Assembly (NCBI GenBank): GCA_029259935.1
Contig: JAJDEH010000057.1
Coordinates: 30,331-94,330 of the forward strand
DNA: 64,000 nucleotides
Source of the DNA: Planctomycetota bacterium
GTDB lineage: Bacteria > Planctomycetota > Planctomycetia > Pirellulales > Pirellulaceae
Direction of reading: 5' to 3'
Below the pieces are notes generated by a model. That model was not told the origin of the DNA and did not search any database. It was given only the letters and a program-made list of their open reading frames with translations. The position numbers and the translations under genes are program-made. This document shows, piece by piece, positions 18,294 through 21,553 of the stretch (the first letter of the stretch is position 1; each line of letters begins with the position of its first letter).

Positions 18294-19409
18294 TCAGTTC
18301 TTATCGCTGAACGGATAGCTGGCGAACAACACCTTGCCCAAGCCGAGATAGGGATCCTCGAGATCGGCATCTAAAACATCGCGATACATCCACACCTTGG
18401 TGGCCGCGGGCGTGGTCATACCGCGTGCAAGATACTGATGCAGTACGAGCCGTCGCTGCGATTCGTTAATGCGCGTGTCCTCGGCTAGTTCCTTCCAGCG
18501 GGCAACTTCGCTCGACGGACGCAACTTCTCGTCGGACTGTTTTAGCTGCTCGATCTCCGCCGCCGAACGGGCTCGCAATACGAGCTTGAGGGGACGTTCG
18601 ACCACTCGCTTGGACCGGTTCTCTTTCAGCGACGGCAGCAAGGCCAAGGCCGGCTGGTTAGCGGCCAGCGCTTCGGCCTGCTTTCCGTGGTAGTCGCGCA
18701 GTGTCGCCTCTTGATCCGGCCCCGACGCGACCACCCAGCGATGCAATCTGGCCAGTTGGTCAAGATTTCGCTGATACGAGATGGGCTCATAAATCCCAGG
18801 AAGTATATCCAGAATGTTGCCGTCGGCGTTGCACACATACGTAGCGATGTTGCCATTCAGTGTTCGTCGAACGACTCGTCCGCCGCCGAAATCGATGCTG
18901 ACGATCGGCACTTCGCGAACGTTTTCCCATGTTGGCTCAAAGTGGTGGTTGATGAAATTGGCGATGCGGTCGTCGGAGAACAGCACGGTTCTCGCAAGTC
19001 GGGCATTCGTTCAGCAAAAGCGGTCGTCGAGGTTGCCCATCATTTGGAACAGCAACACGGGTTTGTTGCTCTTCACGCTGGCTTGCCGGGCCTCGTCCAG
19101 CGAGCCGTGCCAACGAACCTTGCCGGGCTCGACGCGCGGATTGTCGGCCACCGTCGTATGACCTGTTTCCGGTGCCTTCTCCACCAAACGCTTGATCGGC
19201 GCTTCAACGCGGAAACCCTTGGTTACGTCCAGCCGAACCTTAGGCTTGTCCACTTTGGGCTGAACCGCCGATTGTTTCACGATGTCGTTGACCGGCTTTT
19301 CGACAACGCGTTTCTTCGTGGGATCCGCGGCGGGGCGCTCGTCCGCCGGCGCGAGTTTGGCGGCGGACAACACCGTCAGCACGACAAGACTAAGGGAAAG
19401 GGACTTCAT
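18294..19409 (-). CDS. candidate selenoprotein: exported thioredoxin-like protein with in-frame UGA
   Basis: ATG 19409 (MKSLSLSLVVLTVLSAAK, signal peptide) follows GAGGAG by seven bases. Residues 25-95 are Lys/Val/Pro-rich and probably disordered. A thioredoxin-like domain follows: KVRWHGSLDEARQASVKSNK, PVLLFQMMGNLDDRFC, then UGA at codon 133 (19013-19011), then TNARLARTVLFSDDRIANFI. It continues without a break through GNIATYVCNADGNILDIL to a helical tail ending at 18294. Read as selenocysteine, the product has 371 residues and a vicinal Cys132-Sec133 pair at the place of the redox motif. A SECIS-like hairpin lies at the right distance (separate entry). Alternatives are a nonsense mutation or sequencing error. 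The selA/selB/selC/selD genes are not in this window. Confidence 0.72.
18976..18993 (-). promoter_or_regulatory. candidate bacterial SECIS hairpin
   Basis: In the mRNA sense, GAGAAC-CGUGCU-GUUCUC forms a perfect 6-bp stem with a 6-base loop. The loop begins 24 bases after the UGA, and G is its second base, followed by U. These are the features required of bacterial SECIS elements for SelB binding (stem of 4 bp or more, G in the first two loop bases, loop about 16-37 bases after UGA). The hairpin lies inside the coding frame, as in all bacterial selenoprotein genes. Confidence 0.65.
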
Positions 19410-19533
19410 TTGCATGCTCCTCGGGCTAGGGGTATTGCCTCTCATGCCTGAATAATATCATCGAATGCGGCCTCCGGCGGTAACGGCTTTGTAACCTGAC
19501 TTTTGAATGCCTACCGAAGGTTTTTTCAGTAAC

Positions 19534-19639: not shown

Positions 19640-21553
19640 CTACCCAATCCATTCGCGCATCCAGAGTTCGAAAACGAGCAGCGACCAAAGCCGGTAGCTG
19701 TGGTCGAACAATCCGTTTTCGTGCTCGCGGACCATGCGCTCTACTTCCGCGTGTCGAAACAATCCGCGCGATCGCGCCGTGTCGTCCAGCAACACGTCGT
19801 GCGTCATTTCCTTGAGTTCGTTGCGGAACCAATGGTCGATGGGAACTCCGAATCCCATTTTTTTGCGAGTCCAGATTTCACGAGGCAGCAAATCTCCAAA
19901 TGCGGTTCGTAAGATTCGCTTGCCGACTCCACGGCGAAACTTCAGCCGGGCCGGCATCGACGCGGCCAGTTCGACAACCCGATGATCCAACATCGGCTGA
20001 CGGCATTCCAAGCTGTGCGCCATCGAGGCGATATCGACCTTGGTCATCAAATCGCAAGGCAGATAGGTCGTCAGATCGGCCAGGCTGGCGGAGGTTACAA
20101 AATCTCGTTTCGAGGCGCGCGCCCAAGCGGATTGCAAAAAGGCAAACGGGTCGGAATCGGCCAGGCTGCCGATGAAGGTTTCCGTGTAAAGTTCGGCGCG
20201 AGCCGCTTCGTTGTAAATGCCGATCCAATCCAAGTAGCGGCGTTGGGGCGGCCGGGCCAGCGCGCCGCTAAATCGCTTCACGCGTCGCAGCAGTGATTTC
20301 TGTCGCGTGGATGCAGGCAGCCGTTGCCAAACGGGCGAGGCGAGAAAGCGGTTGACCGGTCCCAACCGGTCGAGCAGCCCGGCCAGCCAAATGGCCTTAT
20401 AGCGCGGGTAGCCGGCAAACAACTCGTCGCCGCCGTCACCCGACAGCGCGACCGTGACGTACTCGCGTGTCAGCTTCGATACGTACCAAGTCGGAATCGC
20501 CGAACTGTCGGCGAAAGGTTCGTCGTAGTGCCACACCAGTTTGGGCAGCACGTCGAGGCCGTCGGGCGTGACTTGAAATTCGTGATGATCGGTCCCTAGA
20601 TGCTTGGACACCATACGGGCATACCGCGTCTCGTCATACTCCTTGACCGGGAACCCGATGCTGAACGTCTTGATCTTCTGGTCCGAATTCTTGGCCATCA
20701 GCGCGACGATCAGAGAGGAATCAACGCCCCCCGAAAGGAATGCCCCCAGTGGAACGTCGCTGCGCATCCGCATCGTGACGGCCGATTCGAGCAGCGGGCG
20801 CAGTTGCGCGGCAGCGTCCTTGGAAGTCATCTCGGCCTGGTGATTGAAGTCGGGACTCCAATAGGCTCGCACGTTCAAACAACTGTCCTCATAGACCGCG
20901 CAGTGGCCCGGCGGCAACTTGCGAACGCCGCGAAGAATCGTATTCGGATGAGGAACGTACTGATACGTAAGATACTCATCAACGGCGCAAGGATCGATTT
21001 CGCGCGACGCGCCGGGCACGGCCAGCAGACTCTTCAATTCGCTGGCAAACAGCAACCGATTCGGCTCATGCCGATAGACCAACGGCTTTTGCCCCAAGCG
21101 GTCGCGGCCTAGCACGAGCCGCCGACGGGGGGCGTCCCAGATGGCGATCGCGAACATGCCGTTTAGATGTTCGAAGCAATTCGTACCTTCATCTTCGTAA
21201 AGGTGAACGATCGTTTCGGTGTCGCTGTTGGTCCGAAACTTGTGGCCGGCGCCTTCTAGGCGACGCCGCAACGTTTCAAAATTATAGATCTCTCCGTTAA
21301 AGACGACCCACACCGTGCCGTCTTCATTCGACATCGGCTGGGCCCCACCCTCGATGTCAATGATCGACAGCCGGCGAAAGCCGAGTGCCACGCCCGGCAT
21401 CGGTTCGTACGGCGGGCGCAGGCGATATTCAAAATGGCTGCTGCCATCGTCGTCGGGCCCGCGATGGCGCAACGCCTCGGTCATCCGCTCCAAGACATCC
21501 GCCTGGATGGCAACCGCAGGATCGTTCCAAACCGCGCCGACAATTCCGCACAT
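19640..21553 (-). CDS. asnB: asparagine synthase (glutamine-hydrolysing)
   Basis: The 637-residue protein has the class-II glutaminase start MCGIVGAVWND with Cys2 as nucleophile, LRHRGPDDDG, the substrate block FNGEIYNFETLR, and the synthetase P-loop LSGGVDSSLIVALMAK followed by FSIGF and VALSGDGGDELFAGYPRYKA. It converts aspartate and glutamine to asparagine with ATP. In planctomycetes several AsnB paralogues occur, some serving capsule or exopolysaccharide modification, so amidation of another acceptor is possible. It stands alone in its orientation, with a hairpin downstream. Confidence 0.92.
   Translation of the reverse strand: MCGIVGAVWNDPAVAIQADVLERMTEALRHRGPDDDGSSHFEYRLRPPYEPMPGVALGFRRLSIIDIEGGAQPMSNEDGTVWVVFNGEIYNFETLRRRLEGAGHKFRTNSDTETIVHLYEDEGTNCFEHLNGMFAIAIWDAPRRRLVLGRDRLGQKPLVYRHEPNRLLFASELKSLLAVPGASREIDPCAVDEYLTYQYVPHPNTILRGVRKLPPGHCAVYEDSCLNVRAYWSPDFNHQAEMTSKDAAAQLRPLLESAVTMRMRSDVPLGAFLSGGVDSSLIVALMAKNSDQKIKTFSIGFPVKEYDETRYARMVSKHLGTDHHEFQVTPDGLDVLPKLVWHYDEPFADSSAIPTWYVSKLTREYVTVALSGDGGDELFAGYPRYKAIWLAGLLDRLGPVNRFLASPVWQRLPASTRQKSLLRRVKRFSGALARPPQRRYLDWIGIYNEAARAELYTETFIGSLADSDPFAFLQSAWARASKRDFVTSASLADLTTYLPCDLMTKVDIASMAHSLECRQPMLDHRVVELAASMPARLKFRRGVGKRILRTAFGDLLPREIWTRKKMGFGVPIDHWFRNELKEMTHDVLLDDTARSRGLFRHAEVERMVREHENGLFDHSYRLWSLLVFELWMREWIG

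Follow-up and report, generated by a model that had tools for sequence, protein, structure and literature searches.

Whether the UGA that splits this planctomycete reading frame ends one protein or encodes selenocysteine (Sec) in the middle of another is the question raised by the locus. Within the 64,000-nucleotide stretch of DNA analysed (hereafter the window), the original prediction of a frame divided by UGA at codon 133, with coherent sequence to either side, is confirmed: we find 371 codons on the minus strand with a single internal TGA, preceded by RFC and followed by TNARLARTVLFS, as first quoted (Table 1). Judged by comparison with its relatives, namely their conserved UGA, Cys/Sec exchange, SECIS element and sel genes, the gene very probably reads this codon as Sec in what appears to be an exported redox protein. 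The upstream neighbour (19640-21553, minus strand) has MCGIVG as its first residues and resembles a glutamine-dependent asparagine synthase, which is our presumption; it does not recur beside the family, and at most 4 of the 47 TGA sequences defined below share any one cluster of flanking genes (simple ORF caller, at least 90 aa).

Table 1. Positions of the features discussed, numbered along the window.
Feature	Position	Strand	Basis or remark
Reading frame of the probable selenoprotein	18294-19409	minus	371 codons plus stop (ATG at 19409, terminal TGA 18296-18294); homology on both sides of UGA
UGA, probable Sec133 codon	19011-19013	minus	TGA in 46, Cys in 34, other in 0 of 80 loci
Cys132 codon, vicinal to Sec	19014-19016	minus	Cys in 35/47, Thr in 12/47 TGA sequences
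Cys193 codon (Sec +60)	18831-18833	minus	frequent in family, not constant
SECIS hairpin	18976-18993	minus	arms 18993-18988 and 18981-18976; loop CGUGCU 18987-18982
GAGGAG, ribosome-binding-site-like, 7 bases 5' of ATG	19417-19422	minus	by eye from the sequence
Signal-peptide-like leader, about residues 1-24	19338-19409	minus	look of the sequence and general rules
Thioredoxin-fold domain, residues 94-228	18726-19130	minus	predicted
C-terminal region, residues about 283-362, mostly helical, conserved	18324-18563	minus	alignment and predicted model

Scanning a single genome for each species gave 160 related loci, of which the best 80 were kept; 46 of these read TGA at the site and 34 read TGC or TGT, with no other codon found. 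The homologue alignment called for by the original prediction therefore places TGA or Cys at the site in 80/80 loci and an unrelated residue in none. The TGA loci, which together with the window make up the 47 TGA sequences, are titled Planctomycetota, Melainabacteria/Obscuribacterales (some titled Cyanobacteria), Armatimonadetes, Eremiobacterota and two unplaced bacteria, and the Cys loci are titled Nostoc and its kin, Acidobacteria, Myxococcales/delta-proteobacteria, Pedosphaera, planctomycetes and others. The gene thus displays the pairing expected of a bacterial selenoprotein, a conserved in-frame UGA whose place is taken by Cys in homologues. We built a tree of 83 domain sequences, masking the two active-site columns, from 46 Sec sequences (45 loci and the window, excluding L042) and 37 Cys sequences (34 loci and three proteins), and on it the Sec/Cys label changed at least four times, three of these changes being forced by well-supported branches; Cys-Cys proteins fall inside the Sec group, and L063, a Sec form from Uabimicrobium, inside the Cys group. 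No relative of the gene was found in the viral contigs scanned.

These counts bear on three other readings of the codon. If the UGA were a real stop, translation would yield a separate second protein from the GTG at 18986, which is where the mechanical ORF list and the database gene calls do begin; however, the site is never TAA, TAG or any residue other than Cys, the Cys relatives run unbroken across it and the Cys genes lack the hairpin described below, and we consider this reading very improbable. Even less credible is a pseudogene or sequencing error, for although the frame of one of the 46 TGA loci (L042) is interrupted three codons before the site, the same TGA recurs in 46 loci of several phyla with long conserved sequence on both sides. 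We give just as little weight to UGA being a sense codon genome-wide, a reading in favour of which no evidence was found: the gene itself terminates with TGA, TGA ends 12 of the 31 mechanical ORFs of at least 280 aa in the window (putative genes), and the relatives show Cys rather than one fixed other residue.

The way in which the family is represented among database proteins was also apparent from a search in which 7999 candidates were scored. It returned 102 homologues, including the window's own fragment (P0002), of which 97, judged by their first residues, begin within 12 codons after the site, while P0083 and P0098 start later and P0007, P0048 and P0075 run through the site as Cys-Cys. 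Within this search, whose length limit leaves out N-terminal fragments and in which short contigs may cut some homologues, relatives of the family in public databases are mostly pieces cut off at the UGA codon.

A SECIS-like hairpin had been proposed downstream of the UGA and is indeed present (GAGAAC-CGUGCU-GUUCUC), with a perfect 6-bp stem and G as the second base of its loop. The CGUG loop follows UGA133 after 23 bases, its first base being the 24th; this loop and its spacing agree with the bacterial SECIS model set out in the parts of PMC13188914 considered here, that is a small apical loop with G in the first two positions, 16-37 bases after the UGA. A 66-nucleotide stretch folds into the hairpin stem with an energy that is ordinary (z -0.97, with 30 of 200 shuffles folding as well), and the case for a SECIS element therefore rests on conservation in relatives. 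Six pairs in the window's register are kept in 44 of the 47 TGA sequences versus none of the 34 Cys sequences, in which the maximum is four; the exceptions are L025 with four pairs, L028 with five and L045 with two in this register, the last having a different stem in its own fold. Across 30 of the 47 TGA sequences we found changes on both sides in four of the six pairs, with 96.1% of cells paired and compensatory changes carried by L063 and L034, and pairing as high as that observed was reached in 0/500 shuffles, which leave relatedness uncontrolled. Codon choice within the stem is also distinctive: Arg in the 5' arm is encoded by AGA or AGG in 45/47 TGA sequences versus 53/452 nearby Arg codons; in the Cys genes the same codon is AGG in 10/34.

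Sec machinery accompanies the UGA form among the relatives. The 46 TGA loci come from 45 genomes, and counting sel markers over curated cut-offs we found selB in 39, tRNA-Sec in 37, selD in 40 and selA in 39, with all four in 27 genomes, three in 13, two in 3 and a single marker in 2 (G004 and G024), so that at least one is present in 45/45; the selD match itself contains a TGA in 22 of them. selB was found in 12 of the 34 Cys genomes, and its contrast between TGA and Cys genomes has a Fisher p of 3e-6, calculated on related genomes that are not independent. For tRNA-Sec the two groups differ less at the curated cut-off (37/45 TGA versus 20/34 Cys genomes) than at a 59-bit line chosen afterwards (37/45 versus 15/34, the 15 scoring at least 59.9 bits). 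A profile search of 149 genomes related to G030 matched 52, of which 16 were strong (<1e-50) and 36 only weak, the latter mostly rows with one TGA. Fourteen of the strong genomes carry TGA and two Cys; 13 of the 14 have tRNA-Sec at E <=1e-10, and the two without TGA are also without tRNA-Sec, which overall is present in 91/149. In the window itself there is no tRNA gene and no Rfam match over the gathering score, so selC does not lie in this stretch. Among planctomycetes, full Sec-insertion gene sets are described for Gemmata obscuriglobus and Isosphaera pallida in the part of PMC4807772 considered here. The relatives thus support the proposal that the UGA is read as Sec, through the Cys/TGA exchange, the hairpin and the sel genes of the TGA genomes; for the window organism we infer Sec, and likewise the chemistry and substrate of the protein.

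That the protein is thioredoxin-like, as had been suggested, is supported by its predicted fold, a thioredoxin domain of the DsbD-gamma/DsbH/AGR2 type among the families listed by VIA-align (in the same model residues 8-25 have pLDDT <50). Identity to the corresponding domains (3f9u, 2ju5, 2fwe and 9i3u) is low at 15-19%, and unlike them the window protein has no CxxC and carries an extra C-terminal helical region; a sequence-profile search of the PDB gave no match up to E 10. In the predicted model Sec133 lies immediately before helix 134-143; so modelled, it opens the active-site helix and stands in for the first Cys of a CxxC motif. The +3 position is Ala or Gly in 47/47 TGA sequences (Ala in the window protein), and accordingly neither a CxxC nor a UxxC active site was found in these 47. 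The -1 position is Cys in 35/47 and Thr in 12/47, which makes the lone selenol the constant element, and the vicinal Cys-Sec pair originally proposed is therefore true of the window protein while failing as a constant of the family. L013 and L014 have no Cys from 45 residues before Sec to the end of the protein. In the linkers either side of the thioredoxin domain we also observe a short repeated motif, K..[IV]ExP[LV][KE] (window 19290-19313, 19191-19217 and 18585-18617; also in L041, L006, L004 and L019), which by a simple pattern occurs in 0 to 6 copies per protein across 46 loci.

Taken together, these comparisons make it highly likely that the gene encodes an exported thioredoxin-fold selenoprotein with a SECIS/SelB-decoded Sec133, acting as a one-selenol oxidoreductase. 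The CGUG-loop hairpin would let SelB deliver Sec-tRNA to UGA133, and Sec133 would then sit where the attacking Cys of CxxC normally is, the second Cys having given way to Ala. The site of action would be outside the cytoplasm, export being suggested by the look of the N-termini alone, and there the selenolate may attack a disulfide, mixed disulfide or peroxide, leaving an intermediate that could be resolved by Cys132 where present, or else by a partner or small thiol. Weighing against this picture are the missing Cys at +3 and, in L013 and L014, the lack of any Cys over the stretch given above, both of which bear on the resolving step, together with the ordinary folding energy of the hairpin, the single Sec marker in G004 and G024 and the lack of a recurrent partner gene nearby. 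A selenoprotein whose Sec instead binds a metal or traps an electrophile, with no disulfide or peroxide turnover, would be in keeping with the missing resolving Cys at +3 in all 47 sequences and the missing vicinal Cys in 12; we regard this as unlikely, considering that the closest folds include the disulfide oxidoreductases DsbH and DsbD-gamma and that Sec/Cys exchange is usual at redox sites.

No Pfam or NCBIfam model describes the protein outlined above at a score over its cut-off. Pfam has no family for it up to E 1 (a match to DIM with the N-terminal piece alone, at E 0.25, was dismissed as chance), and NCBIfam returned only VPGUxxT, at 16.2 bits versus a cut-off of 275; five further members, two of them Cys forms, likewise matched no Pfam or NCBIfam model over cut-off. 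We saw no fitting entry in parts 1-2 of the 3 that make up the section holding the 119-family table of PMC13188914, and recognised no paper describing the family in a literature scope that left out most subscription papers, preprints and supplements. VPGUxxT (NF041383/NF041382; OS_HP5 in the part of PMC13188914 considered) is similar in being secreted-looking and thioredoxin-like with Sec at the presumed first Cys of CxxC, and the two overlap weakly in profile N-terminal of the site. However, the window family has no VPG before Sec, its -1 residue being Cys or Thr, and at +3 it has Ala or Gly whereas VPGUxxT has Cys or Thr. Genome G022 has, as well as the family member L022, a VPGUxxT gene (L100) that scores over cut-off and is read with Sec; two in-frame TGA codons fall within its NF041383 match. 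Thioredoxins with a UxxC site, as described in the same part of PMC13188914, similarly use Sec as the attacking residue of the fold but retain the +3 Cys that the window family does not have. Thioredoxin_7 (PF13899, gathering score 27 bits) is likely the parent superfamily, since sister and Cys forms match it weakly (L048 at 16.7 bits, L059 at 16.0 bits), although the window protein gives no match and has no second Cys.

Twelve stretches taken from the G030 relatives include sister forms as well as members of the window family: eight are of a TU-NNA type (L088, L089, L091-L095 and L099), one is LU-SAG (L090), two belong to the window family (L096 and L097) and one is its Cys form (L098). The TU-NNA type is a second selenoprotein family without a model, found in Gemmata-type genomes, and is larger than the window family. 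With L091 as query, 7993 candidates were scored and 2157 proteins matched. Among the 120 matches listed, 119 have lengths of 235-246 aa and span 71-74% of L091, as expected if they were cut after the UGA (two, P0104 and P0160, were inspected), and the listed match P0174 is full-length, its residue at the site being Cys. In 9/9 sister genes the UGA is followed by CCGTG, and when six were folded CGUGU lay in the apical loop in three and not in the other three. No NCBIfam or Pfam model scored over cut-off for L089-L092. L090 (2-1183), the third type, has one in-frame TGA and reaches 23.7 bits versus 27 for Thioredoxin_7, and its stem letters GAGGGC/GCTCTC are identical to those of L039; in the PDB it retrieved only designed repeat proteins and a dehalogenase, taken as chance.

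We lean slightly towards the view that the gene represents one of three branches ([CT]U-TNAR, TU-NNA and LU-SAG) in a large superfamily of exported thioredoxin-fold selenoproteins, centred on planctomycetes, that share a lone selenol and a common CGUG SECIS loop, the window branch occurring also in Melainabacteria/Obscuribacterales, Armatimonadota and Eremiobacterota. If so, the superfamily may rank among the larger bacterial selenoprotein groups, with databases mainly containing its fragments, and the vicinal Cys-Sec pair would serve as a resolving module that varies between members. In either case a well-supported selenoprotein family is added, with an unusual UxxA site, for which we saw no entry in Pfam, NCBIfam or the parts of the 119-family table considered. 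Our observations further suggest that in many planctomycete genomes such proteins are split by standard gene calling, and they open a direct test of whether these bacteria, common in the environment, need selenium.
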